From: Devosia sp. 67-54
GTDB taxonomy: Bacteria > Pseudomonadota > Alphaproteobacteria > Rhizobiales > Devosiaceae
Assembly: GCF_001899075.1 (NCBI RefSeq)
Contig: NZ_MKVA01000005.1
Coordinates: forward strand, 186,001 to 250,000
Length of the DNA: 64,000 nucleotides
Reading direction: 5' to 3'
Every line of letters begins with the position of its first letter. Position 1 is the first letter of the stretch. Below, in pieces: positions 28,382 to 48,065 of this stretch. The notes under the pieces are model-generated. The model saw only the letters and a list, made by a program, of their open reading frames with translations, was not told the DNA's origin and searched no databases. The position numbers and the translations under genes were made by a program.

Positions 28382-28544
28382 GCAAGCTCGCGAGTGCGCG
28401 ATTTTGCTTATGGGCGAATCAGTTGCATAAGCCTCTTCCGGAAACGAATCAGGGACCACACATAAGGTCCACCCATCGCATCGCATTCTCTGCCAGTATT
28501 TGAACCGAACTCGGCCCGTCCCGGGCACCGGAGCAACAAGCCAG

Positions 28545-31184
<2,640 letters not shown>

Positions 31185-33564: not shown

Positions 33565-33915
33565 GACGATGTCCTCGTGATTGCGGCCTAGATGTCGCCT
33601 GCGGAACGGGCTTACAAGAACGCACAGGGAGGTAACTGCCATGGCCGCGACGTCGATCGTGCCGGTCACGCAGGGCGCCGATGCCGCCGAGGCCTATCGG
33701 TCGAGCCCGGGCCGCGGAGCGGATCGGGCGACCTTTACCTCGGCATTCGCGGGCCTTCGCCGAGGCGGGCTATGTCGAGGGGGGCGCGACCGCTGCCGCG
33801 GCGGCCGGTCATGCGGCGGACGAAAGCGTAGCCTGCCGCAAGCGAAAGCCCCGGCTGTGGGAGCCGGGGCTTGCTGGGCACTTCAGAGGGAGGCTGAAGC
33901 GCGGAGGACTCTCGC
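33565..33915. other. 351-bp intergenic region with a weak ORF start and a terminator
   Basis: AGGGAGGTAACTGCC precedes an ATG at 33642 whose frame reads MAATSIVPVTQGADAAEAY, a plausible start. The frame then degrades into Arg/Gly/Cys-rich sequence and runs antisense through the next gene. The +2 frame carries RAFAEAGYVEGG, reminiscent of an N-terminal segment of some ABC substrate-binding proteins. It may be a decayed gene; the evidence is weak. The 3' part holds the hairpin at 33846-33872. Confidence 0.3.
33846..33872 (-). terminator. terminator of the Thr/Pro-rich membrane protein gene
   Basis: AAGCCCCGGCT, a 5-base loop, then AGCCGGGGCTT form a perfect 11-bp stem 44 bp past the minus-strand stop at 33916. 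A short T-rich stretch (TTTCGCTT) lies at its minus-strand 3' side. Confidence 0.75.
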
Positions 33916-34338
33916 TTACTGCGCCGCCGACGAAGCGGGGGCGGCTTCAGACGGTGCCGGCGCGACCGAGCTGGCCTCAGTGGCCGGAGCCGAGCTGGCG
34001 GGCGCGGTCGACGGAGCGGCCGAGGTGCCGTTGTCGGCCGGAGCCGTGGTCGCCGGAGCCTGCGGGGTCACCGCGGTGCCGGTGTTGTCGGCCGGAGCCA
34101 TCGGCGTCGTCGTGGTGTTGGCCGGAGCCGGGGTCGTATCGGTCACGGCCGGGGTATTGTTGACCGTGGTGCTGGTCGAGGGCTGCGAGTTGGCCGAGAA
34201 GACCAGGTAGGCGATGGCCAGCAGCGCGAGGGCAACGATGATGCCCACGAACCAGCCGGTCGAATTGGACTCGCGAGAGTAGATGGTCCGGTTGGTACCA
34301 TCATTGGTATAGACGGTATCGCGATCTGGGGTAGCCAC
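33916..34338 (-). CDS. small membrane-anchored protein with Thr/Pro/Ala-rich tail
   Basis: A 140-residue protein. It has a polar N-terminus (VATPDRDTVYTNDGTNRT), one membrane helix (GWFVGIIVALALLAIAYLVF) and a long low-complexity tail (TTPAPANTTTTPMAPADNTG, then PA/S repeats). The GTG at 34338 is preferred because AAAGGAGGT lies 4 bases upstream of it; an ATG 12 codons earlier lacks such a site. The extended tail would lie in the periplasm. No family or function was recognised. Confidence 0.7.
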   Translation of the reverse strand: MATPDRDTVYTNDGTNRTIYSRESNSTGWFVGIIVALALLAIAYLVFSANSQPSTSTTVNNTPAVTDTTPAPANTTTTPMAPADNTGTAVTPQAPATTAPADNGTSAAPSTAPASSAPATEASSVAPAPSEAAPASSAAQ

Positions 34339-34475
34339 AGGGACCTCCTTTGTTTGAGTACCGTATGGCAGCAAGAACGCGGGCCTTTCCGAATTGTTCC
34401 GAGTGCTGACAAGCGCGCTGGGGACAACTCAAGAGGCGGTTTTAACCATTTGATTTCGTTTGCTTATCTTTTCCA

Positions 34476-35945
34476 TCAGGGGAGATGGAACCGCTTGCCG
34501 AGGTAGATCGTCGGCTCATAAATGGTGTGTCCGAAGGCGGTGTAGGGCACGGTTTCGAGCGGCGTGAGGGAGTCGAAATACGGCGCGACCTCGCCGAGCC
34601 CGAGCTGCGGGTCGCTGACCACCAGCGCATCCTGGCCCTGATGGGCAGCCGGATCGAACCAGTAGTCGTACTGGTCGTGGCGCGACGAGATCGCCGTCAC
34701 CTCCGGATCGTGCAGGGCAAAGCCGAGTTGCGCCGCCGTGGTGTAGCGGGTGGCGGCGACGAAGCCGATCGTGTGCGTCTTTTCGAGCGCCTCGATGCGC
34801 TCGGCGACGGCGGGCCAGCCGAAGGTCGACGACGCCGTCCAGTCGTAGCGGCCGATGAGGTTGCCGACCGGCACGATGGTCTGGTCGAAGGCAAAGCCGC
34901 CGGCGAGCAGCGTTCCGTAGAGCAGATGCAGCAGCAGCACCCAGCGGCGGCGGATCCAGCCGGCGAGCAGCGGCATCAGCGGCAGGATCGCAACGATGTT
35001 CCAGTAAAAGAAGATCTCGACGAACATCGACAGGAACAGCATGCCGAGCGAGGAGGCGGCGAAGATGCTGAGCGACAGCACGCGGGCGCGATCGGCGAAG
35101 GGCACCCCGAGCGGCCGGCGCGCCATGCCCACCAGCGCCGGCACCAGGAACGGGGACATCGCCAGCGTGGCGACGACGAGGAATTCGAGCACGTTGAGCG
35201 GGTGGAAGGTGAAGAGCGAGCCGCCCCAGCGCTCGGAGAGGTGGAATTTGTAGGAGGCGAAGCCTTCGGTGAAATTCCACCAGACGACGGGCGCCTGGAT
35301 CGCCACCGCGACCAGTGCGGCGGCGTAAAGATGCGGCGAGCGCCACATCGCCCGCACCGGCCGGTGCGCCAGGAAGAAGACCACGAGGCCGACGCCGAGG
35401 AAGACGCCGTTGTATTTGGTGAGCACGGCGAGGCCGAGGGCGACGGCACCGGCATAGAGCCAGCGCAGATTTGGCGCACCGGCCTCGTAGCGTTCGGCGA
35501 AGGTCACGAACAGGTGGATGGTGAGCGCCGAGAGGAAGATCAGCAAATGGTCGTGGAAGGAGATGCCGCTCATCAGCCAGAAGAGCGGCGAGGCGAGGTA
35601 GATGGCGGCGGTGGGCCAGAACCAGGCCGCGGGATCGTCGGGCTTCAGGCGCTTTGCCCAGAGCCAGAAGATCCACAGCGTGCCACCCAGGGTGAACCAG
35701 GTGAGGGCGCGAATGGCGAACAGGTTCCAGCCGAAGACGAGGCTCATCAGCCGCATCAGCCAGGGGTGCAGCGGCGGGTGGTCGAAATACGACCAGGCGA
35801 GCTTCTGGCCCCACATCCAGTAATAGGCCTCGTCGCCGATGGGCGGCATGAAGGCGGCAAGGTAGATCTTGAGGGCGAGCAGCAGGACGAAAAAGACCTG
35901 CGCGACGAGCACCGGACGGGAGGCGACGGAGGCGGGCGACGTCAT
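34476..35945 (-). CDS. GT39/ArnT-like membrane glycosyltransferase (array gene A)
   Basis: A 489-residue polytopic protein of the PMT_2/ArnT class, which transfers sugars from polyprenyl-phosphate donors at the periplasmic face. The acidic motif GDEAYYWMWG (DEAYYW at 38-43) and YFDHPP (53-58) lie in the first periplasmic loop, where family members carry catalytic acidic residues. Further shared landmarks are SFHDHLLIF, LTKYNGVFLG and NFTEGFASYKFHLSERWGG. About ten to twelve helices precede a soluble periplasmic tail (TRYTTAAQLGFALHDPEVTA). The start overlaps the stop of gene B by 4 bp (ATGA), and it is last in the array. The acceptor is unknown. Confidence 0.9.
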   Translation of the reverse strand: MTSPASVASRPVLVAQVFFVLLLALKIYLAAFMPPIGDEAYYWMWGQKLAWSYFDHPPLHPWLMRLMSLVFGWNLFAIRALTWFTLGGTLWIFWLWAKRLKPDDPAAWFWPTAAIYLASPLFWLMSGISFHDHLLIFLSALTIHLFVTFAERYEAGAPNLRWLYAGAVALGLAVLTKYNGVFLGVGLVVFFLAHRPVRAMWRSPHLYAAALVAVAIQAPVVWWNFTEGFASYKFHLSERWGGSLFTFHPLNVLEFLVVATLAMSPFLVPALVGMARRPLGVPFADRARVLSLSIFAASSLGMLFLSMFVEIFFYWNIVAILPLMPLLAGWIRRRWVLLLHLLYGTLLAGGFAFDQTIVPVGNLIGRYDWTASSTFGWPAVAERIEALEKTHTIGFVAATRYTTAAQLGFALHDPEVTAISSRHDQYDYWFDPAAHQGQDALVVSDPQLGLGEVAPYFDSLTPLETVPYTAFGHTIYEPTIYLGKRFHLP

Positions 35946-37423
35946 TTGGCCTTGGCCTCGGCGTGGAAGTGCCTGCCCAGATAGATCGTCGGCGCGTAGA
36001 TGGTCTGGCCGAAGGCGGTGTAGGGCACGGTCTCGAGCGGGGTGAGGGAATCGAAGCGCGGAGCGACCTCGGCGAGGCCGAGGATCGGGTCGGAGACGAC
36101 CAGCGCGTCCTGGCCGTCATGCGCGGCGGCGTCGAACCAGATGCCGTATTGGTCGTGGCGGCTGGAGAGATCGGTGACCTCGGGGTCGTGCATGGCGAAG
36201 CCCAATTGTGCGGCGGTGGTGTAGCGTGTGGTGGCCACGAAGCTCGTGTGCTCGTTCTGCTCGAGGACCGCTATGCGGGCAGCGACCTCGGGCCAGCCCC
36301 GCATGGACGAGAAGGTCCAGTCGTATTGGCCGGTGAGGTTGGCGACCGGAACCATCGTCATGTCGAACAGCATGAAGAGAATGGCGGCGATGCCGTAGCC
36401 GAAATGCACGTTGAGCATCCAGCGCCGGTTCATCCAGCCCACCAGCAGCGGCATCAGCAGCACGAAGGCCACGATGTTCCAGTAGAACAGCACCTGTACG
36501 AACAGCGACATTGCAAGCGTGATCGCGCAGGAAATGGCGAGGACCGACAGCGCCAGGGTACGGGCGCGATCGGCGAAGGGCTCGCCGAGCGGCCGGCGGA
36601 TCAGCAGGACGATCGGCGGCAGCAGCAGCGGCGACAGGTGCGAAACCGTCAGGCCGACGAAGCGCAGCAGGCTGAGCGGACCGGGCTCGAACGGTACGTC
36701 GTTCCAGCGCTCGACGAGGTGATACTCGTAGGATGCGAAATGCCGAGCAACGTTCCACCAGATGACCGGGGCTTGCACGGCAAGGCTCAGCACCGCGGCG
36801 AGGTAGAGATGCGGTGAGCGCCAAAGGGGACGCGCCGGCGGGTGTGCCACGAGAAATATCGCCAGGCCAAGTGCCAGCAGGATGGCATTGTATTTGGTGA
36901 GCGCGGCGAGCCCGAGCAGCAACGCGGCAAGGTAGAGCCAGCGCCAGCCTTTGCCGCTCGTCTCCCAATGCTCGGCGAATACCAGGAAGCAGTGGGCCGA
37001 GGCGAGGCAGAGGAAGATCAGCAGATGGTCGTGGAAGGCGATGCTGCCCATCAGAAAGAACATCGGGCTCGCCAAATACACCGCGGCGGTGGGCCAGAAC
37101 CAGGCGGCGGGGTCGTCGGGCTTCAGGCGCTTCGACCAGAGCCAGAAGATCCACAGCGTGCCGGCCAGCGTCAGCCAGGTGAGGGCGCGCAGCGCGAACA
37201 GGTTCCAGCCGAAGAGACGGCTCATCAGGCCGAGCAGCCAGGCATGCAGCGGCGGATGGTCGAAATACGACCAGTCGAGCTTTTGCCCCCACATCCAGTA
37301 ATAGGCCTCGTCGCCGACGGGCGGCATGGTGGCGGCCATGTAGACCTTGAGCAGCAGCAGCACGCCGAAGACGATCTGCGCCGCGACGATCGGGCGGTCG
37401 GTGGCGCGCTGGGGCGTGGTCAC
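35942..37423 (-). CDS. GT39/ArnT-like membrane glycosyltransferase (array gene B)
   Basis: A 493-residue paralogue of gene A and its closest relative in the window. It has VGDEAYYWMWGQKLDWSYFD, AFHDHLLIFLCLASAH, LTKYNAILLALGL and the tail TRYTTAAQLGFAMHDPEVTD. The tail of A and B is nearly the same in the region SRHDQY.WFD, suggesting a recent duplication. The GTG at 37423 overlaps the stop of the UPF0114 gene (GTGA) and is chosen over an upstream ATG whose in-frame extension is basic and out of character. It is coupled downstream to gene A by ATGA. Confidence 0.88.
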   Translation of the reverse strand: MTTPQRATDRPIVAAQIVFGVLLLLKVYMAATMPPVGDEAYYWMWGQKLDWSYFDHPPLHAWLLGLMSRLFGWNLFALRALTWLTLAGTLWIFWLWSKRLKPDDPAAWFWPTAAVYLASPMFFLMGSIAFHDHLLIFLCLASAHCFLVFAEHWETSGKGWRWLYLAALLLGLAALTKYNAILLALGLAIFLVAHPPARPLWRSPHLYLAAVLSLAVQAPVIWWNVARHFASYEYHLVERWNDVPFEPGPLSLLRFVGLTVSHLSPLLLPPIVLLIRRPLGEPFADRARTLALSVLAISCAITLAMSLFVQVLFYWNIVAFVLLMPLLVGWMNRRWMLNVHFGYGIAAILFMLFDMTMVPVANLTGQYDWTFSSMRGWPEVAARIAVLEQNEHTSFVATTRYTTAAQLGFAMHDPEVTDLSSRHDQYGIWFDAAAHDGQDALVVSDPILGLAEVAPRFDSLTPLETVPYTAFGQTIYAPTIYLGRHFHAEAKAK

Positions 37424-37938
37424 TTCCTGGCGTCTTTGCCGACGGCCTTGGTGAGGGCGGCGACGCGGTCGATGAAGGCGAGGAACAGCGCCGAGACCAC
37501 GAAGGCCAGGTGGATCAACGTGTACCACATCAGCTTGTCGCCGGCGTATTGCTCGACGTTGAGGAACACCTGCAGCAAATGGATGGAGGAGATGGCGACG
37601 ATGGTCGAGGCGACCTTGATCTTGAGCGAGCCGACGTCGATCTCGCCCAGCCAGTGCACGTCGCGGGATTCATCGAAGCGCGACACGAAGTTCTCGTAGC
37701 CGGAGATGATCACCATGACGACGAGGCTGGCGATCAGCGCCGCGTCGATCAGCCCCAGCATCTTGAGGATCGAATCGGAGTCCTCGAGGGCGAACAGATG
37801 GGTGGCGAATTCCCACAGCTTGTAGCCGAAGCTGATGGCGTACAGCGCCAGCGCGATGCCGAGCCCGATATAGAAGACCACCAGCAGCCAGCGCGAGGCC
37901 AGGATCACGCCCTCGATGAACAGCTCCAGTCGCTTCAT
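37420..37938 (-). CDS. UPF0114 (TIGR00645/YqhA) family membrane protein
   Basis: A 172-residue inner-membrane protein starting MKRLELFIEGVILASRWLLV, with GLGIALALYAISFGYKLWEF, LIASLVVMVIISGYENFVSR and IKVASTIVAISSIHLLQVFL, all diagnostic of the family. It has three to four helices. Function is unknown. It sits inside the glycosyltransferase array, overlapping gene B by 4 bp and 59 bp after gene C, so it should be co-expressed with them. An in-frame ATG 18 codons upstream is less likely because the family start is MKRLE. Confidence 0.92.
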   Translation of the reverse strand: MKRLELFIEGVILASRWLLVVFYIGLGIALALYAISFGYKLWEFATHLFALEDSDSILKMLGLIDAALIASLVVMVIISGYENFVSRFDESRDVHWLGEIDVGSLKIKVASTIVAISSIHLLQVFLNVEQYAGDKLMWYTLIHLAFVVSALFLAFIDRVAALTKAVGKDARK

Positions 37939-37997
37939 GACGCCTCGTCCGGTTGGTCGCACAGGAAATAGCGAATTTGGGCGATCCGGCAAGCCGG

Positions 37998-39473
37998 TCA
38001 GGGCTTAAAGTCGCGGCCCAGCCAGATTTCGAAGGTCCAGACGGTCTGGCCGCGGACGACCACCGGCACGTCCTCGAGCTTTTCGACGCCGGCGAAATGC
38101 GGCGCCGCCTCGGCGATGGTCGAGCCGGCGCCGGCGTCGGCGACGATCAGCGCGTCCCGGCCGGCATGGGCGGCGGCGTCCCACCAGAAATCGGCCTGCG
38201 AGGGCAGATGGTTGAGGGCGGCGATGTCGGCATCGTGCAACTGGAAGCCGAGCTGAGCGGCGTGGGTGTAGCGGGCGGCGGCGAGGAAGGCGTCGGGATG
38301 CGCCTTGTGCTGCACGACGATTTCGGCGGCGAGCTCGGGCCAGCCGAAGCTCGCCGCGGCGCCGGTGTCGCCGAAGCCGAGCAGCTTCATCGGGCCGACT
38401 GTATAGTTGAGGAGGCCGACGGTGATGATCACGAGGCCGAAGGCGATGTGCAGCAGCATCGCCAGCCGGCTGGAGACGAGGCGGAGGACCACCGGGGCGA
38501 GCACGGCATAGGCGACGATGTTCCAGTGGACGTAGATGTAGACGTAGAGTGCGATGATCGCCCAGGCGAGCGTCGACAGCAGATAGACGATGCCGGCGAG
38601 GCTGAGGCTGCGCGCATCGTCGTCGGAACGGCGGCGAAGGAAGGGAAGGCGGAACAGCGCCAGGAACAGCACCGGCGACATCGAGGCCACCATGGCGCCG
38701 AGGAAGTCGACCACCTGCCGCAGGCTGGGCGTGCCCCAGTTGAGATGGTCGCGCTCGGTGAAGTGGTAGCGCAGGCTGGCCCAGCCTTCGGTGAGATTCC
38801 AGTAGAACACCGGCGCCTGCATCAGCACGGCGAGCAGCACCGCCAGCCAGAGCTGCGGCGTGAGGTAGAGCCCGCGCAGCTTCGGGCGCCAGACGATCCA
38901 GGCGGCGAGGCCCACGCCGAGGAAGACGCCGTTATATTTGGTGAGCACGGCGAGGCCGAGCAGGGCGGCGGCGAGAAAGAGGTTGCGCCACGCCCGGATG
39001 CCGGCTTCCCAGTCGCGCGCGAAGCTGTGAAAGGCGTAGGTGGTGGCGACGACGAAGAAGATCAGCAGATGGTCGTGGTAGGCGAAGGCCGACATCATGA
39101 AGATGATCGGGACGGTGAAATAGAGCACTGCCGTCTGCACGAGCCAGCCGAGGCGGTCGTCGGGCGCCAGCAGCTTCGACCAGAGCCACAGCACGGCGAG
39201 GGTGCCGGCGAGGCTCAGCCAGGTGAGCAGCCGGACGCTGAAATTGCTCCAGCCGAACAGCGCCGCCACCAGCCCCTGCAGCCAGCCGTCGAGTGGCGGG
39301 TGGTCGAAATACGACCAGCTCAGGTGCTGGCCCCACATCCAGTAATAGGCCTCGTCGCCCATCGGCGGCACGGCGAGGTCGAACCACAGGCGCAGCGCCA
39401 GCAGATAGGCGAGCACCAGCCCGAGCAGCACCAGCCACCAGCGCGGCGCGGGGCGGGTGGCGGCCGCGCTCAT
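37998..39473 (-). CDS. GT39/ArnT-like membrane glycosyltransferase (array gene C)
   Basis: A 491-residue paralogue with MGDEAYYWMWGQHLSWSYFD, AYHDHLLIFFVVATTYAFHS, LTKYNGVFLGVGLAAW and NLTEGWASLRYHFTERDHLN. Its periplasmic tail has ARYTHAAQLGFQLHDADIAA. Unlike A, B and E it reads TERDHLNW rather than xERW at the loop after TEG. The start ATG overlaps the stop of gene D (ATGA). A much longer open frame upstream is a shadow of gene D/E. The sugar donor and acceptor are unknown. Confidence 0.9.
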   Translation of the reverse strand: MSAAATRPAPRWWLVLLGLVLAYLLALRLWFDLAVPPMGDEAYYWMWGQHLSWSYFDHPPLDGWLQGLVAALFGWSNFSVRLLTWLSLAGTLAVLWLWSKLLAPDDRLGWLVQTAVLYFTVPIIFMMSAFAYHDHLLIFFVVATTYAFHSFARDWEAGIRAWRNLFLAAALLGLAVLTKYNGVFLGVGLAAWIVWRPKLRGLYLTPQLWLAVLLAVLMQAPVFYWNLTEGWASLRYHFTERDHLNWGTPSLRQVVDFLGAMVASMSPVLFLALFRLPFLRRRSDDDARSLSLAGIVYLLSTLAWAIIALYVYIYVHWNIVAYAVLAPVVLRLVSSRLAMLLHIAFGLVIITVGLLNYTVGPMKLLGFGDTGAAASFGWPELAAEIVVQHKAHPDAFLAAARYTHAAQLGFQLHDADIAALNHLPSQADFWWDAAAHAGRDALIVADAGAGSTIAEAAPHFAGVEKLEDVPVVVRGQTVWTFEIWLGRDFKP

Positions 39474-40936
39474 TTGACGAGATACACCGAGTAGGTCTCG
39501 AGCGGATCGCCAGCGGCGTCGCGGGTGATGGCGGCGAGCAGGGTGGCGTTGGCCGGCGGCGCCCCGGCCCCGGGCGTCACCAGCAGATGCGGGGCGGCCA
39601 TGAGCGCGGGATCGGCCGGCGGCATGTACTGGTAGCGGAACGGCTCGGAGGTCTCGAACACCGGCAGCGGGTCGTGGGCCATGCGGGCATAATAGCCGAG
39701 CCAACCGTTGAGCGAATAGTTGGTGGTGTCGACCCAGCGGGCGCCGCTGTCGCGCGCCAGCGCCGAGACCTTGCTCCACAGATCCGGCCAGCCATAGACG
39801 AAGTCGAAGGCCTTCACCGGCCCGAGGACGGGCAGGGTGCGGGTTTCGATCGACTGGTAGGCGACGAGCATCAGAGCGAGGCCGAGCGGCACGTGCAGGG
39901 CGGCGATGGCGTTGAGCGCCCAGCGCAGCCAGCCGGCCCGCGGACGGACGGTCATCGCCGCCCAGGCGCCGACCAGCGCCAGTTGCGGAAACAGCGGCGC
40001 TGTCCAGTTCGGATTGACGCGGCCGAACACGGCGTCGGCGAGGAAGTAGGCGGCCATCGGCGTGGCGGTGAGCACCGGCAGAGCGAGCGGCCGCGCACGG
40101 CGGGCGAAGAACAGCACGAGGCCGAGGATGACGAAGACGTAGAGCGTGGGGAGGAGCTGGATGCCCTCTTCGACGAGGAAGCGCAGGAATTCGCCGGGCC
40201 GCACGACGTGGTCCGCGAAGTTCGAGCGGCCGAGCTGGTAGCGGAACGAGTTCCAGTCGCGCTGCGAATTGACCCAGACGACCGGGGCAAAGCAGAGCAG
40301 GGCGAGCACGCCGCCGGCCCAGACCTGCCAGAGCTTCAGCCAGGCGAGGCGGTCGCGGCTGGTAACGAGGTAGAACAGCAGTCCGGCGCCGAGAAAGACC
40401 ACGGTGTATTTCGACAGCAGGCCGAGGCCGGCGCAGAGGCCGGCCAGCAGCCACCAATTGGCGTTGCGGCTGCGGGTGAATTCGGCGACGGCCCAGATGG
40501 CCAGCACCCAGAACATGGTCGAGGGGCCGTCCGGCGTGGCGACGGCGAAGGTGATGATGACGGCCACCGTCACCGAATAGGCGATGGCGGCGGCGGCGCC
40601 GATGCGGCGATCGCCGAACAGGATGTCGCCCATGCGGTAGAGCGCGGCGCAGACCACGAGATCGGCGACGAAGAACATGCTGCGTACGGCGAGCTCGCTC
40701 TCGCCCAGCAGCGCGCGGCCGAGCCAGATCAGCCAGGCGACCGACGGCGAGTGGTCGTAGTACCAGACGCTCGGATAGAACGACCAGATGGCGTAATAGG
40801 CCTCGTCGCCGATGAGGCCGAAGCGGATGGCGAAGGCCAGCCGCGGCAGCGTCAGCAGCAGCACGATGATGCCGGCGCCGAGCGGGGTGGCCCAGCGCGG
40901 GGTGCGCGGTGCGGCGATGGGGGCGCTGGTGCTCAC
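39470..40936 (-). CDS. GT39-type membrane glycosyltransferase, divergent (array gene D)
   Basis: A 488-residue polytopic protein, the most divergent array member. The first-loop motif is GDEAYYAIWSFYPSVWYYDH followed by SPSVAW instead of the WMWG...YFDHPPL of the others. It keeps both acidic sites (DEAYY and YYDHSP), and LLSKYTVVFLGAGLLFY replaces LTKYNG. The C-terminal part has TTNYSLNGWLGYYARMAHD. It probably belongs to a different GT39 subgroup with another acceptor. GTG at 40936 overlaps the stop of gene E (GTGA); its own stop overlaps gene C (ATGA). Confidence 0.87.
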   Translation of the reverse strand: MSTSAPIAAPRTPRWATPLGAGIIVLLLTLPRLAFAIRFGLIGDEAYYAIWSFYPSVWYYDHSPSVAWLIWLGRALLGESELAVRSMFFVADLVVCAALYRMGDILFGDRRIGAAAAIAYSVTVAVIITFAVATPDGPSTMFWVLAIWAVAEFTRSRNANWWLLAGLCAGLGLLSKYTVVFLGAGLLFYLVTSRDRLAWLKLWQVWAGGVLALLCFAPVVWVNSQRDWNSFRYQLGRSNFADHVVRPGEFLRFLVEEGIQLLPTLYVFVILGLVLFFARRARPLALPVLTATPMAAYFLADAVFGRVNPNWTAPLFPQLALVGAWAAMTVRPRAGWLRWALNAIAALHVPLGLALMLVAYQSIETRTLPVLGPVKAFDFVYGWPDLWSKVSALARDSGARWVDTTNYSLNGWLGYYARMAHDPLPVFETSEPFRYQYMPPADPALMAAPHLLVTPGAGAPPANATLLAAITRDAAGDPLETYSVYLVK

Positions 40937-42420
40937 GGCTGGTAGTCGTCGCCGTGGAAGATGCGCCAGTGATAGACCTCGCGGCCGAAGCGCGTGATGG
41001 TGAAGTCGTCGACCATGGTGAGATTGGTAAAGCTCTGGGCGAGGTATTGCAGCACCGGCGAGCCGTCGTCCTCGTCGGTGAGGATGAGGGCGGATTTGCC
41101 GGCCAGCGCGGCGCGGTCGATCCAGTACTGGTATTCGAGCTCGGGTTCCCTGGTGATCGGCACGGCGGCGGTGGTGCCGAGCGCAAAGCCGATCTGCGAG
41201 GCGGTGGAATAGCGCGTGCCGGCGACGAGGTCGGCCGGGTGCGCCTGCTGCGCGGCGCGCATGTGCGCCGCCACCGTCGGCCAGTCGATGTTGATGGAGC
41301 TGCCGCGGTCGCCGTAGTTGAACAGGGGCGCTACCGGCGTCACGGCGAAGTTGAAGACCAGCAGGGCGGCGCAGACGAGGCCGTAGAGGGTGTGCAGCCA
41401 GAACTGGACTCGCGTTCCGATCCAGCGCACCAGCAGCGGCAGGATGCCGACGAAGGCGAGGATGTTCCAGTAGAAATAGCCGCCGATGGCGATGGTCATG
41501 GCGAAAAAGCCGAGCGACGAGATGGTCATGGTGGCGACCGACACGGTCTTGAGCTGGCTTTCGAACGGCGAGGCCGGTCTGCCGCGCAGCATCCTGACCA
41601 GCGGCCACAGCAGGAATGGCGACAGCATCAGGATGTTGAGGACGACGAAGGCGAGCGGTGGCAGCAGGGCGAAGTGCCAGGGCTGGTCGCCCCAGCGGTC
41701 GTGCATGTGGAAGCGGAAGGACGCGAAGCCTTCGGTGAGGTTCCAGTAGAGCACCGGCGCCTGCATGGCGACGGCGAGCAGGCCGGCGAGCCAGGGGTGC
41801 GGAGTGCGCAGGGCGCTGCGCAGATCCTGGCGGAGCAGCAGGGCGGCGGCAAAGCCGAGGCCGATCACGGCGCCGTTGTATTTGCTGAGGGTCGCGAGAC
41901 CGAGCGCGATTGCCGCGGCGTAGAGCCAGCGCGTGGCGCCGGCCGTGCCGGCGGCCCAGCGTTCGGCGAAATTCGCGAAGCCATGGAGGGCGAGCAGGCC
42001 GAAAGCGACCACGAGATGGTCGTTGTAGGCGATGCTGGTCATGGCGAAATAGAAGGGCGAGGCGAGATAGAGCACCGTCGCCGCCCAGAACCAGGTGTCG
42101 GGATCGGCGGGGGCGAGCTTCCGGCTCCACAGCCGGAACACCCACAGCACCAGCGCCAGCGCCAGCCAGGTGGTCAGCCGCACGGTGAAGCGCGACCAGC
42201 CGAACAGGTGCGACACCGCGAACAGCAGCCAGGCATGCAGCGGCGGGTGGTCGAAATACGACCAGGCCGGGTGCTGGCCCCACATCCAGTAATAGGCTTC
42301 GTCGCCGACCGGATCGGCGTTGAGGTCGAAATACAGCCTCAGCGCAAGGAACAGCAGCGCCGCCAGCGGCAGAGCGAGGTGGAGGCGTCGTTGCTGCGGG
42401 GGTGCGGCGGCGAGGGTCAT
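40933..42420 (-). CDS. GT39/ArnT-like membrane glycosyltransferase (array gene E)
   Basis: A 495-residue paralogue with VGDEAYYWMWGQHPAWSYFD, AYNDHLVVAFGLLALHGFAN, LSKYNGAVIGLGFAAALL and NLTEGFASFRFHMHDRWGDQ. Its soluble tail has TRYSTASQIGFALGTTAAVP and ends TRFGREVYHWRIFHGDDYQP. That ending closely parallels gene F (MGHPIYIWRIFRGEGYIP), so E and F are sister copies. The start at 42420 (MTLAAAP) is preferred, though ATG at 42456 is in frame. It is coupled to D by GTGA and begins 70 bp after F. Confidence 0.88.
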   Translation of the reverse strand: MTLAAAPPQQRRLHLALPLAALLFLALRLYFDLNADPVGDEAYYWMWGQHPAWSYFDHPPLHAWLLFAVSHLFGWSRFTVRLTTWLALALVLWVFRLWSRKLAPADPDTWFWAATVLYLASPFYFAMTSIAYNDHLVVAFGLLALHGFANFAERWAAGTAGATRWLYAAAIALGLATLSKYNGAVIGLGFAAALLLRQDLRSALRTPHPWLAGLLAVAMQAPVLYWNLTEGFASFRFHMHDRWGDQPWHFALLPPLAFVVLNILMLSPFLLWPLVRMLRGRPASPFESQLKTVSVATMTISSLGFFAMTIAIGGYFYWNILAFVGILPLLVRWIGTRVQFWLHTLYGLVCAALLVFNFAVTPVAPLFNYGDRGSSINIDWPTVAAHMRAAQQAHPADLVAGTRYSTASQIGFALGTTAAVPITREPELEYQYWIDRAALAGKSALILTDEDDGSPVLQYLAQSFTNLTMVDDFTITRFGREVYHWRIFHGDDYQP

Positions 42421-42490
42421 TGCGGGTTCCGTCTGGCGGCGCGAGGCATAGCCCATCGGGCGCGCCGGGCAAACATGCGGGCTGCGGCGC

Positions 42491-43984
42491 TCACGGGATG
42501 TAGCCCTCGCCGCGGAAGATGCGCCAGATGTAGATCGGGTGGCCCATGCGCACGGTCTGCCACTCGTCGATGGTGGTCAGCGTGGTGAAGTGCCGGCGCA
42601 GCCAGTCGAGGCGTTCGCCGCCGCCGAGGCCGTCGGGCTCGTCGCCGAGGATCAGCGCCGACTTGCCGGCATACTGGCTGCCGTCGCCCTGCCAGAAATC
42701 GTATTGCGAATGCTCGGGCGAAAGTTTCACCACGTCGGTGGTGCCCAGCACGAAGCCCAGTTGCGAGGTGGTGGAGTAGCGGGTGGCGCCGATGAGGTCG
42801 GCCGGCTGTGCGGCGATGGCGGCGCGCATGTGCTCGCCGATCTCGGTCCAGCCGAAATCGCTGGCCGAGCCGCGGTCGCGGCGGCCGATGAAATCGGCGA
42901 ACGGCATCCAGGTGAAGTTGAAGACGAAGGTGAGGATCAGCAGCAGGCCGACGATGTAGTGCGCCCAGCGATGGACGGGGTTGGCCATGAAGCGGGTGAG
43001 CAGCGGCATAAGGCCGATGAAGGCCACGATGTTCCAGTAGAAATAGGCGTCGAGCACGCAGGAGATGGCGAGGAAGCTGAGGCTCGAGACGGTGAAGACG
43101 GTGAGCGCGACGGCCTTGGCGCGGCTCTCGTCCGGGGTGAGCGAACGGCTGCGGATGAGGCTGATGGTCGGCCAGACGAGGAAGGGCGACCAGAACAGGA
43201 TGCACAGCAGCACGAAATTGACCGGGTGCTGCCAGTCGAAGGCGCCGGGCGTCGTCTAGCGGTCGTTGAGGTGGTAGCGGAACGAGGCGAGGCCTTCGGT
43301 GAGGTTCCAGTAGATCACCGGCACCTGCATGGCGACCGCGAGCAGCGCCGCGAGCCAGGGATGCGGGGTCCTGAGCAAAGCGCGCAGCTTCGGGCGCAGC
43401 AGGAAGGCGGCAAAGAAGCCGAGCCCGAGGAAGGCGCCGTTGTATTTGGTCAGCACCGCAAGGCCGAGCGACGCCGCCGCCAGATATAACCAGAGAGTCT
43501 GTCGTGGCCGGCCGGTCTCGACCTTGTCGGTGAAGACGACGAAGCAGTGTACCGCCAGCAGGCACAGAAAGATCAGCAGATGGTCGTTGTAGGCGACCAG
43601 CGAGATGCAGAAGAACAGCGGCGAGCTCAGATAGATCGCGGCGGTGCGCCAGAACCACAGCTGCGGCGCGTCGGGCGACAGCCGCCTGGCCCAGGCCCAG
43701 AAGATGGCCATCACGCCGGCCAGCGTGAACCAGGTGAGGATGCGCACGCTGATCGGGCGCCAGCCGAAGACGATGTCCATCAGCCGGAGCAGCCAGGCGT
43801 GCAGCGGCGGATGGTCGAAATACGACCAGCCGAGGCGCTGGCCCCACATCCAGTAATATGGCTCGTCGCTGACGAGGTCGGCGCGGAGGTCGAAATAGAC
43901 ACGCAGGGCGAGGTACAGCGCCACCAGGAGCTGCAGCGCGATGATCTCGCGCCGGCCGCGGCCGATCGTGCCCTCTGCTGCCAT
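42491..43984 (-). pseudogene. GT39/ArnT-like glycosyltransferase interrupted by an in-frame TAG (array gene F)
   Basis: A full-length paralogue of gene E from MAAEGTIGRG to MGHPIYIWRIFRGEGYIP, except for a TAG on the minus strand at 43258-43256, after residue 242. Upstream the sequence reads NLTEGLASFRYHLNDR then stop, where gene E has DRW and genes A and B have ERW, so a TGG Trp codon changed to TAG by one base. The frame is unbroken on both sides (TTPGAFDWQHPVNFVLLC follows). The first-loop motif is DEPYYWMWG with YFDHPP, so the N-terminal half is intact. It is either a pseudogene, a read error, or two fragments. The start at 43984 has GGAGTGGGC just upstream. Confidence 0.85.
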
Positions 43985-44096
43985 GCCCACTCCGAACGAT
44001 GGCGTGAGCCATAGCCCATTGGCGGCGTTGGGCAAACACCCGTTGCAGCCGCAGGCGACGCCGCTACTATGCGGGCCGCCGGGACGGGGGAACGGG

Positions 44097-45008
44097 ATGA
44101 TCAGTCCGGAAGCGCGGACGCGCATTCAGGAGATGTTTGCCAGGAAGCGCGCCGAGGCAAGGCTGTTTCCGGGCGGCAAGCCGGTGGACCGCAACCGCCG
44201 CGACTGGGAGGCCGAAAGCCGGCTCGACGTGCTGCCCAAGGGGTCGCGCTTCACCCCCGCCGATGCCGGCGGCATCAAGTCCGAATGGATGGAGATGCCG
44301 CTGATCGACAAGTCGCGGGTGTTCCTGCTGCTGCATGGCGGCGGCTACAATGCCGGCTCGCCGCGCACGCATCGCAAGATGGCCGCCTATCTCAGCCGGG
44401 CCGCGCATGCGCGGGTGCTGACGCCGGACTATCGGCTGGCCCCGGAGCATCCGTTTCCGGCGGCGGTGAAGGACGCGCTCCTGGCGTATGGCTGGCTGCT
44501 CGAGCAGGGAACGCCGGAGGCGCAGATCGTTGTCGGCGGCGATTCCGCCGGCGGCGGGCTGGCGCTGTCGATGCTGTTGGCGCTGCGCGAGGCGGGCGCG
44601 AAGATGCCGCGGGCGGCGGTGCTGCTGTCGCCATGGACGGATCTGTCGGTCTCGGGCGGCAGCTATGAGCGGCTGCGCAAGCTCGATCCGGTGATCACCC
44701 GCGAGGCGCTGCGGGAGGCCGGCCGGTGGTATGCGGGCGGGCGCGACCCGCGCGACCCGATGGCCTCGCCGCTGTTCGCGGACGCCACCGGCCTGCCGCC
44801 GCTGCTGATCCATGTCGGCGGCGACGAGACCATGCTCGACGACAGCCGGCTGTTCGCCGAGCGGGCGCGGGCGGCGGGCGTCGAGGTGACCTTCAAGGTC
44901 TATGACGGCATGTGGCACGTGCACCATTCCGGCGCCCCGGAGGTGCCGGAATCGGTGGCTGCGTACAACGACATCGCTGCCTTTATTCGCGCGCAATTCG
45001 GCGGTTGA
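44097..45008 (+). CDS. alpha/beta hydrolase, hormone-sensitive-lipase type esterase
   Basis: A 303-residue esterase of the HSL (family IV) group. The oxyanion-hole motif HGGGYNAGSPRTH, TPDYRLAPEHPFPAAVKDAL, the nucleophile elbow GDSAGGGLALSM, the Asp region LLIHVGGDETMLDDSRLFAE and the His region DGMWHVHH complete a full catalytic set. There is no signal peptide, so it is cytoplasmic. It would hydrolyse short-chain esters; the natural substrate is unknown. The start at 44097 is preceded by GGGGGAACGGG. It is divergent from array gene F. Confidence 0.92.
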   Translation: MISPEARTRIQEMFARKRAEARLFPGGKPVDRNRRDWEAESRLDVLPKGSRFTPADAGGIKSEWMEMPLIDKSRVFLLLHGGGYNAGSPRTHRKMAAYLSRAAHARVLTPDYRLAPEHPFPAAVKDALLAYGWLLEQGTPEAQIVVGGDSAGGGLALSMLLALREAGAKMPRAAVLLSPWTDLSVSGGSYERLRKLDPVITREALREAGRWYAGGRDPRDPMASPLFADATGLPPLLIHVGGDETMLDDSRLFAERARAAGVEVTFKVYDGMWHVHHSGAPEVPESVAAYNDIAAFIRAQFGG

Positions 45009-45500: not shown

Positions 45501-48065
45501 TCAGCGTTCGGCGGTGTAGGTGACCAGCGGCGTGATGCGCTTGATGGTGACGCGCCGGTTGAGCGGTTCGGCCGCCTGCGTCTTCACCCGCAGATAGCGC
45601 TCGCCATAGCCCTGGGTCACCAGGTTCTCCGGCGGGATATCGTAGAAGTCGGTGAGGATGCGGGCGACGGTGGCCGCGCGCTGGTCCGACAGCACCAGGT
45701 TCGAGATGTCCGAGCCGACCGCGTCGGTGTGGCCCTCGATCAGGAACACTTCGCCGGGGTTGCGGTCGAGCAGCTTCTGCATGGCGTCGGCCACCTTGCT
45801 GAGCGCGCCGACCTGGCTGCGGGCGATCGTCGCCTTGCCGGTGTCGAAGGTGAGCCCCCCGACCTCGAGACGGCGGACGCTGTCGCGCAGGCGGGCCGAG
45901 CGCTTGACCTCGTCGATCGTATAGATGCGACGGACCTGTTCGACCGGCGGCTGGTCGAGGAAGTCGGTGACCTCCTCGTCGTCGGCGCTGCGGGCGTCGA
46001 GGATGTAGTCGCTGGCCGGGATGGTCAGGTGCAGCGGCGGCAGGTCGGCGCCCGGATCGCGCCAGGTGTCGATGTCGGTGTCCTTCGGATCGTAGGTCGA
46101 GAGCAGGATCTCGCGGCCGTTGGGCAGGATCTTGCTGCGCTGCAAGACGTCGCCGTGGCGGCTGCGGATGGTCACGATCTTGGTGCCGTTGGGACGGGTG
46201 ACCGTCTCGCGGGTGCGGCCGCGGCCGAGATCCTCGTAGTAGATCTCGTCCTCGCGCGGATCGTAGTAGCGGCTCCGCTCCTGCTCCGGGTTGTTGATGA
46301 CGACGTTGACGCCGATCTGGATGATCACACCAGTGTTGTTCTGCGCCGGCGGCGGCTGCGGCGGCGGGTTGCCGTTGGCCGGCGGCTTGCCGTTCGGCGG
46401 CGGGTTGCCCTGGGGCGGGTTGCCCGGTCCCGGCGGCAGCTGGATCACCTTCACCGGCTGGTCGCCATTGCCCTGCGGCGGGGCGATCTGGATGTCCTGC
46501 ACCTTGGATTTGGTGCCCTTGTCGGTGAGCGTCGATTGCTGCTCGGGCGTCGGCTTGGCGATGTCGGCCTGCGCCTGCTGGTCGGTCTTGGGCGGCGGCG
46601 CCGGCGGGGTGGCCGGCGGCGGCGGCGCTTCGGACGACGCGGCGGGCTGCGACGGCTGGCCCTGGTCGGCCGGCTGCGTCTGCTGGTCCTTGACGCTGTC
46701 GAGGATCGGCGCAGCCTCATCGGGCTTGACCTCGGACGGCAGCACTTCGACCGCGCTCGGGGTCACCGCTTCGCTGGCGTTGGGCTGCTCGCTGATCGGC
46801 GGCACCGACGAGGCCGGCGGCGCCGGCTCGGCGCTGGACGCCGCCTGCTGCTGCTCCGACGACGCGGCCGGCTCGCCGGGGGCGGCCGGCAGCGGGCTCA
46901 GCGTCAGGCCGAACTGCGCGAGGCAGGTGGCCGTGTCGGCAAAGCCGCCATCGGTGCAGATCTTGCTGATGCTGGCGTTGGCCTTGTCGATCTTGGCCTG
47001 GCCGGCGGCATCGCCCGCGGTGAGCTCGGCGACGCCCTGGTTGTAGAGCTCGACGGCGGCGGTGAGCTTCTTCACGGCGCCTTTGGGCGGCGGCGCTTCG
47101 GAACTCGGGGCCGGGGCAGGTGCCTCGGACGAGGGCGCCGGGGCGGCCTGCTCCGAGGAGGGAGCGGGGGCCGGGGCGGGAGCCGGGGTCGGCGCCGCCT
47201 GTTCCGACGAGGAGGCCGGGGCCTCGGACGAGGGGGCAGGTGCCGGGGCCGGGGCGGGCGCCGGCTCGGCCGATGGAGCCGGGGCCGGGGCTTCGGAGCT
47301 CGGCGCGGGGGCCTCGGGAATCGGATCCAGCGTCAGGCCGTATTGCGCCAGGCAGGACTGCGCGTCGGCAAAGCCGCCGGTCTGGCACAGGACCGCGATC
47401 TGGCCGCTGGCCTTGTCGATCTCCTGCTTGCCGCGCTTCGTCTTGCCGGCGCCGATGTCGGCGGCCCCCTTGTTGTAGAGCTGCACGGCCGCCTTGAGAT
47501 CGGCGCCGATATCGGGAGCGGCTGGCTTCTGTTCGGGGGCCGGGGCCGGCTGCGCGGAGGACGGCGCCGGCGCGGGCTCGGGCGCCGGGGCGGGCTGTTC
47601 AGACACGGGAGCCGGCTGTTCGGGCGCCGGAGCCGGCTGTTCGGGCGCCGGAGCCGGCTGTTCGGGCGCCGGAGCCGACTGCTCGGGCGCGGGCGCCGGC
47701 TGCTGGGGAGCGGGCGCCGGCTGTTCCGGGGCCGGAGCGGGCTGCTCGGGCGCGGGGGCGGGCGCTTCGGACGACGGGGCCGGCTGTTCGGGAGCGGGCG
47801 CAGCCTGTTGCGGCGCCGGGGCCGGCGCGGCGGGCGGCTGGGCGCTGCTCATGGCGGCGACGCAATCGTCGAAGCTCTGGAAGCCGGCGGCGATGCAGGC
47901 CTCGGTCAGCTTCTGCTTGTTGTCGTCATTCTGGTCGGCGGCATAGGCTTGGTAGGCGGCGACGAGGTCGGCGTTGGTCGTGTCCTGGGCGCGCGCAGCC
48001 ACGGTGGGCGCAAGCGCAAGCAGAGTGACGCTGGTACCGGTGAGGAGCCAGTTTCGCAGTCGCAT
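45501..48065 (-). CDS. large OmpA-family protein with Pro/Ala repeats and three Cys-pair modules
   Basis: An 854-residue exported protein with a signal peptide (LLTGTSVTLLALAPTVAARA). Three similar short modules carry C-x3-G-F-x5-C: ACIAAGFQSFDDC (57-68), then LCQTGGFADAQSC and ICTDGGFADTATC. They are separated by long EQPAPAP/SSEAPAP low-complexity linkers. A Pro/Gly/Asn-rich section and a charged region follow (YYDPREDEIYYEDLGRGRTR). The C-terminus is an OmpA peptidoglycan-binding domain (TFDTGKATI, FLIEGHTDAVGSDISNLVLS, PLNRRVTIKR). It probably tethers the envelope to peptidoglycan. Confidence 0.88.
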   Translation of the reverse strand: MRLRNWLLTGTSVTLLALAPTVAARAQDTTNADLVAAYQAYAADQNDDNKQKLTEACIAAGFQSFDDCVAAMSSAQPPAAPAPAPQQAAPAPEQPAPSSEAPAPAPEQPAPAPEQPAPAPQQPAPAPEQSAPAPEQPAPAPEQPAPAPEQPAPVSEQPAPAPEPAPAPSSAQPAPAPEQKPAAPDIGADLKAAVQLYNKGAADIGAGKTKRGKQEIDKASGQIAVLCQTGGFADAQSCLAQYGLTLDPIPEAPAPSSEAPAPAPSAEPAPAPAPAPAPSSEAPASSSEQAAPTPAPAPAPAPSSEQAAPAPSSEAPAPAPSSEAPPPKGAVKKLTAAVELYNQGVAELTAGDAAGQAKIDKANASISKICTDGGFADTATCLAQFGLTLSPLPAAPGEPAASSEQQQAASSAEPAPPASSVPPISEQPNASEAVTPSAVEVLPSEVKPDEAAPILDSVKDQQTQPADQGQPSQPAASSEAPPPPATPPAPPPKTDQQAQADIAKPTPEQQSTLTDKGTKSKVQDIQIAPPQGNGDQPVKVIQLPPGPGNPPQGNPPPNGKPPANGNPPPQPPPAQNNTGVIIQIGVNVVINNPEQERSRYYDPREDEIYYEDLGRGRTRETVTRPNGTKIVTIRSRHGDVLQRSKILPNGREILLSTYDPKDTDIDTWRDPGADLPPLHLTIPASDYILDARSADDEEVTDFLDQPPVEQVRRIYTIDEVKRSARLRDSVRRLEVGGLTFDTGKATIARSQVGALSKVADAMQKLLDRNPGEVFLIEGHTDAVGSDISNLVLSDQRAATVARILTDFYDIPPENLVTQGYGERYLRVKTQAAEPLNRRVTIKRITPLVTYTAER
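47609..47692. repeat. 21-bp coding minisatellite in the OmpA-family gene
   Basis: Three perfect tandem copies of a 21-bp unit (47609-47629, 47630-47650, 47651-47671), with a fourth degenerate unit to 47692. Each unit encodes a Pro/Ala heptad of the type EQPAPAP. Further degenerate units extend the tract. Length variation here would stay in frame. Confidence 0.85.

Follow-up and report, generated by a model that had tools for sequence, protein, structure and literature searches.

Devosia sp. 67-54 carries six ArnT-like glycosyltransferase genes side by side with a UPF0114 membrane protein gene enclosed among them, and this raises the question of how such a set arose and what it might do. The genes are located within the window, i.e., the 64,000-nucleotide stretch of genomic DNA that was analyzed here. 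Enzymes like these are known, and what is new is their arrangement; a literature search on Devosia GT39, Rgt, and GT-C arrays yielded no account of this array. The explanation that we favor is a clade-specific expansion within Devosia of inner-membrane glycosyltransferases of the ArnT-like type (GT-C, PMT_2), which took place around a UPF0114 gene that was there earlier. We give it a probability of roughly 0.62, whereby this value covers the explanation as a whole, namely the expansion, the polyprenyl-phosphate donors, the envelope acceptors, and the bringing in of one copy, D.

The array is located on contig C5 of a 4.21-Mb genome in 12 contigs. In agreement with the preliminary description of the sequence, seven co-directional genes extend over 9.5 kb (34476–43984), all on the minus strand and with the transcription order F, E, D, C, UPF0114, B, A. 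They comprise copy F (42491..43984, ArnT-like/PMT_2, stop-interrupted), copy E (40933..42456, 507 aa), copy D (39470..40936, 488 aa, GTG start), copy C (37998..39473, 491 aa), the UPF0114 gene (37420..37938, 172 aa, four predicted helices), copy B (35942..37423, 493 aa, with a GTG start in the overlap with the UPF0114 stop), and copy A (34476..35945, 489 aa). The four 4-bp stop/start overlaps that had been reported, GTGA at E/D, ATGA at D/C, GTGA at UPF0114/B, and ATGA at B/A, were each found in the sequence, and the non-overlapping junctions have gaps of 34 bp (F/E) and 59 bp (C/UPF0114). The proposal that this is one coupled unit is borne out as far as the operon-like layout and the recurrence of overlaps in relatives are concerned, but a promoter scan of 33700–44400 yielded no promoter-like site, so that joint transcription of the array is inferred. 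The same region contains 9 terminator-like sites compared to 5.1 expected, none of them at the array end, and the window has no Rfam match at gathering cut-offs and no tRNA.

The upstream border of the array is formed by a divergent alpha/beta hydrolase gene (PF07859; 44097..45008, plus strand), whereby the ATG start at 44097 was assigned by reading and the homology searches took 44121–45008. Downstream follows a gene for a small conserved protein (33916..34341, minus strand, putative start), the 152-aa frame of which has no Pfam match. Both belong to a conserved locus frame with the order OmpA, HTH protein, hydrolase, array site, small protein, luciferase-like monooxygenase, HlyU, and RpoD. 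The OmpA-family protein (45501–48065, minus strand, 854 aa) is rich in Pro, Ala, Glu, and Ser in its first half, and repeated DNA units of 63 and 21 bp occur in its gene at 47529–47827. An RpoD-like frame, named by reading, at 28500–31184 (plus strand) comprises 894 aa, begins at a putative TTG start, and has an extended N-terminal part that is rich in Lys, Ala, and Pro.

With regard to the enzyme family, PF13231 (PMT_2) matches copies A to E and the N-terminal piece of F with 68.3–116 bits (74.5 bits for the F piece) at a cut-off of 26.1, whereas the C-terminal piece of F gave no Pfam match. PF02366 exceeds its cut-off in A, B, C, and the N-terminal piece of F; D and E are absent from this protein scan, and in a genome search with the same family a place within E scores 27.3 against a cut-off of 22.7. 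A model of copy A that was folded together with homologues reached a mean pLDDT of 85, and a Foldseek search of this model against the PDB listed ArnT (5f15/5ezm) on top, with E-values of 6.8e-9 and 7.7e-9 and a TM score of 0.61, followed by other GT-C glycosyltransferases. This match supports the earlier designation of the enzymes as ArnT-like membrane glycosyltransferases, whereby the GT-C fold was seen for the copy A model and the remaining copies are assigned to it by homology. When A, B, C, and E were aligned with seven relatives, the DE pair of the first loop (38–39), DHPP (55–58), D132-H133, and K177-Y178 turned out to be conserved. In ArnT, the first-loop acid is catalytic. A DEAYYW-type first-loop motif had been ascribed to all copies, and the acidic pair is indeed retained, but the strict motif is not, since F has DEPYYW and D has DEAYYA.

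The likeness to ArnT thus consists of the GT-C fold, for which ArnT is the best structural match of copy A, the first-loop acidic pair, and presumably the use of a polyprenyl-phosphate donor. In contrast to ArnT, however, six linked copies are present here and no recognized arn genes adjoin them, copy A shares only 17–18% identity with ArnT in the structural alignment, and there is no NCBIfam ArnT call. D reaches 24.5 bits with the NCBIfam ArnT equivalog NF009784 (cut-off 567), C reaches 14.8 bits with another NCBIfam family (cut-off 200), and A, B, E, and both F pieces have no listed match. As none of the copies reaches any NCBIfam cut-off, no substrate is named for them. When A, D, and UPF0114 were compared with PDB chains by sequence, no meaningful match emerged. 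In the explanation that we favor, each intact copy would take one sugar from a polyprenyl-phosphate donor at the periplasmic face and transfer it onto an envelope acceptor, which may be lipid A/core or another surface glycan; the Asp-Glu pair of the first loop is predicted to sit in the active site.

All six glycosyltransferase copies of the preliminary description belong to one superfamily, but F is interrupted by an in-frame TAG at codon 243 (43256..43258, minus strand), so that only five copies are intact. As the downstream half of F (43255–42491) contains no further stop and has kept a GC3 of 0.93, the break looks like a recent mutation or a sequencing error; this C-terminal piece aligns to E with 45% over 245 aa. 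The in-frame stop might also be taken as a sign that the whole array consists of decaying tandem duplicates with little function, in which relaxed copies are kept by chance, and the fragmentation of the G005 copy beyond A and of the sole copy at locus L065 (both on draft MAG contigs) would fit to that. We consider such a decay quite unlikely, since A to E are open and have a GC3 of 0.88–0.92, the residues that are invariant in the alignment are conserved in A, B, C, and E, all five clade genomes have the groups A and C, and the 4-bp overlaps recur in relatives.

The copies are not all of the same origin. A, B, C, and E share 40–64% pairwise identity, whereas D is 25–29% identical to them. A tree of 52 transferases, in which 9 forks are open and the N-terminal piece of F is the sole frame under 400 aa that was admitted, yielded the groups A/B (located just after UPF0114), C (just before it), and E/F, as well as a far-off D that belongs to an order-wide ArnT-like group. 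Judging from the tree, D did not arise from the other copies by a recent duplication. Over nearly its entire length, it is up to 41–42% identical to genes from other parts of the order, and D relatives occur in 118 of 397 order genomes (E ≤ 1e-20). E relatives occur in two of the 397, the own genome included (E ≤ 1e-30), whereby this draw held one member of the genus Devosia in the E search and up to three candidates per genome were scored in both searches. According to the favored explanation, D would be an offshoot of the order-wide group that was brought into the array, and A/B, C, and E/F would constitute a separate family that multiplied locally and may still be gaining and losing copies, with F now broken.

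The cluster had been regarded as unusually large for such enzymes, and this is confirmed by the comparison with 120 order genomes, own included, where the next largest cluster among the matches listed has three members compared to six here. The count comprises 115 of the 150 listed matches of the 120-genome draw and all 91 rows of a second transferase listing; the other 35 matches showed no cluster by eye. Together with G018, G004, G006, and G005 the window genome forms a clade (100/98); G008 and G429 are placed weakly in the genome tree. Among the named records that contain the closest relatives, most are from Devosia, i.e., a D. nanyangense MAG, a Devosia sp. 66-22 MAG, and other Devosia MAGs. 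Within the genus, the array is conserved in part: only G005 has a similar set, and four relatives have two or three copies at the locus (three in G018, three in G006, two in G004, and three of divergent kinds in G008). The G005 set is split over two contigs that each end inside UPF0114, with four copies before UPF0114, the outermost of which is cut by the contig end, and one intact and one fragmented copy after it. Groups A and C flank UPF0114 also in G018, G004, G006, and G005, and a divergent set does so in G008. The idea of a fixed six-enzyme system is not supported, since the number of copies at the site ranges from two to six, F carries a stop, and the last G005 copy is fragmented. Overall, the array is real, unusually large, clade-limited, and of mixed ancestry, with one copy broken. 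Further PMT_2 transferases were observed at other sites. The own genome has a single C-like gene (L021, 6143–7624) and a tandem pair (L022, 5547–8538) with orthologous pairs in G004, G005, G006, and G018. G007 has four, arranged in two convergent pairs and including a distant D relative (L035, 7094–13413), in a genome without a UPF0114 match. In G008, the array-side alpha/beta hydrolase was matched in two pieces (L004, 5774–6630), which points to a broken gene or an assembly error.

The UPF0114 protein is identified by PF03350 (105.7 bits versus 23.1) and TIGR00645 (170.5 versus 144.4), and its gene was matched in 16 of 19 genus genomes. In nine genomes that are readable on both sides (G001, G002, G003, G009, G010, G011, G014, G015, and G035 from another genus), it is present at the same locus without an array-type transferase; in G012 and G013 one side of the gene is visible. 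Three genomes show the converse. At L065, transferase fragments are located between the hydrolase and the small protein, and at L050 the hydrolase is followed by a transferase at the contig end, with no UPF0114 match in either genome (completeness not given). In D. enhydra ATCC 23634 (L049), two transferases adjoin the HTH gene, and the sole UPF0114 match is a distant one (37%) at another site. Thus, UPF0114 is older than the array and separable from it, and its suggested role as an array-specific component is not supported; its position inside the array is retained within the clade, but not in the nine genomes where it stands at the locus without transferases. As the eight Devosia genomes without transferases also have neither the hydrolase nor the HTH gene at the locus, and G035 keeps both, a loss of hydrolase, HTH gene, and transferases on one branch is as likely as a repeated gain; the genome tree does not separate loss from repeated gain of the transferases.

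A 4-bp overlap between UPF0114 and the next transferase is present in G018, G004, G006, and G005 if the start nearest to the UPF0114 stop is taken, and one of the two near start options in G008 yields it too. These starts were picked among in-frame options, and each UPF0114-to-transferase junction has another one. The gap from C to UPF0114 is 58–61 bp in G018, G004, G006, and G005. The recurring overlap may speak, though weakly, against a pure accident and would keep a link between UPF0114 and the array open. It might be that UPF0114 is a working partner of the transferases in the clade, which for instance presents or recycles the polyprenyl-phosphate carrier, but we regard this as unlikely. 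The fold search for UPF0114 gave a best E-value of 2.6, and the available excerpts of the UPF0114/YqhA literature name no role.

It had been suggested that the sugar donor is supplied from elsewhere, and candidate genes were indeed found on other contigs of the own genome: a GT2-GtrA fusion on contig C3 at 30.9 kb, a stand-alone GtrA gene about 5 kb away from it, and an ArnC/PgfS-like GT2 gene on contig C6 at 302.8 kb, which scores 137.5 bits with the ArnC model (cut-off 529) and 219.6 with PgfS (cut-off 500). Counting the own genome, 18 of 19 genus genomes have a match to the fusion. In the favored explanation, the donors would come from such synthases, i.e., from the GT2-GtrA fusion and perhaps from the ArnC-like GT2. 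For D, this is suggested by its relatives: in 12 of 15 D-type neighborhoods from 14 genomes, hand-chosen mostly from the top of the D match list, a GT2-GtrA synthase with 45–49% identity to the own fusion adjoins the D homologue, and in five of the 15 a YdjC-like gene, Pfam-confirmed for two, is located on the other side. Three neighborhoods are without synthase (L142, L143, L145) and ten without YdjC. At L135–L138 and L140, which belong to other genomes of the order, the D-type transferase has both the synthase and the YdjC-like gene as neighbors, and the three likely constitute a lipid-modification cassette. In the own genome, the presumed synthase of D is on another contig, and YdjC had no match in the window or in the examined Devosia stretches. 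For A/B, C, and E/F no synthase adjoins at the array sites of Devosia, so that their donor class is deduced from the fold and from distant relatives. Among 80 superfamily loci, an ArnC-like GT2 gene is present within 300 bp downstream of the transferase at L094, L103, and L106, and a GtrA-type GT2 gene within 700 bp upstream at L109 and L112. We infer from the fold and these five loci that A, B, C, and E use polyprenyl-phosphate donors. In G011 (L043), a synthase about 5 kb from an A-like gene presents a weak link.

The neighborhoods of D bear on the acceptor. In rhizobia, Rgt enzymes constitute a multi-gene set with rgtABC linked. By description, they resemble the present case in that ArnT-like transferases are paired with a GT2 synthase in related bacteria, but here the synthase is unlinked to the array. 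In an excerpt of PMC7663294, genes of other genomes are assigned by homology as the GalA transferases rgtD and rgtF and the bactoprenyl-phosphate GalA transferase rgtE, and an excerpt of PMC5644692 has rgtE and rgtF as neighbors in Phyllobacterium. According to excerpts of PMC11279074 and PMC6434125, the YdjC-superfamily protein NaxD of other bacteria removes the acetyl group from undecaprenyl-phosphate GalNAc, and the sugar is then transferred to lipid A. Based on this role and on the synthase/YdjC neighborhoods, the substrate of D is most likely a sugar, possibly an amino sugar, carried on polyprenyl phosphate, and the most likely acceptor for D is lipid A/core. The D homologues with both a GT2-GtrA and a YdjC-like gene resemble a NaxD-type hexosamine system, but the window locus has neither synthase nor YdjC. 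A narrower form of the favored explanation would be that different copies decorate several sites of one LPS at lipid A/core, after the model of the rhizobial Rgt enzymes or of a hexosamine system with a NaxD-type deacetylase. The fold match of copy A to ArnT would agree with this as well as the company of the D group and the GalA transferases named above. However, the other five copies are outside the D group. We consider this form possible but hold it with less than even confidence.

Another narrower form of the favored explanation is a decoration of side branches on a surface polysaccharide (capsule or O-chain) by transferases of a strain-specific type. Copy number and content vary among the relatives, as would be expected for surface-glycan variation, and stand-alone GtrA, GT2-GtrA fusion, and ArnC-like GT2 are all present in the genome, which would fit to the three-component logic given in an excerpt of PMC11127046. 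The genome thus contains GtrA-type, GtrB/ArnC-like, and GT-C proteins as in the Gtr systems, but these are not in one cluster, since both GtrA-domain places are on contig C3 and the array is on contig C5, and the transferases are multiplied here. Furthermore, no recognized polysaccharide genes were found beside the array (34–48 kb and 28.5–34 kb). This form is rather doubtful.

In mycobacteria, GT-C enzymes build arabinan. Since Devosia submarina makes a D-arabinan, according to an excerpt of PMC8707391, the donor pathway was searched for in the genome, as the array might polymerize D-arabinan from a polyprenyl-phosphate arabinose made the mycobacterial way. The fold search with copy A also lists AftD, AftA, and Emb. 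However, PF01040 (UbiA) has just two matches in the genome, which are heme O synthase and 4-hydroxybenzoate octaprenyltransferase, so that no UbiA-family phosphoribosyl-lipid synthase was found, and the sole ALO-domain protein reaches 38.8 bits compared to a DprE1 cut-off of 500. The mycobacteria-like arabinan route is disfavored by these data and appears highly improbable.

What the array offers is five intact linked ArnT-like enzymes from two distinct lineages in one genome, together with relatives that have two or three copies, which makes it a good system for asking how ArnT-like enzymes change their sugar or acceptor. If UPF0114 were a partner of the transferases, a widespread protein without a role would gain a readable function by its enclosure in the array, and the recurring 4-bp overlap would mean a coupled synthesis with the next transferase. 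At the same time, the locus shows that a UPF0114 gene can have been resident before an operon-like array enclosed it, so that guilt by association alone could mislead.
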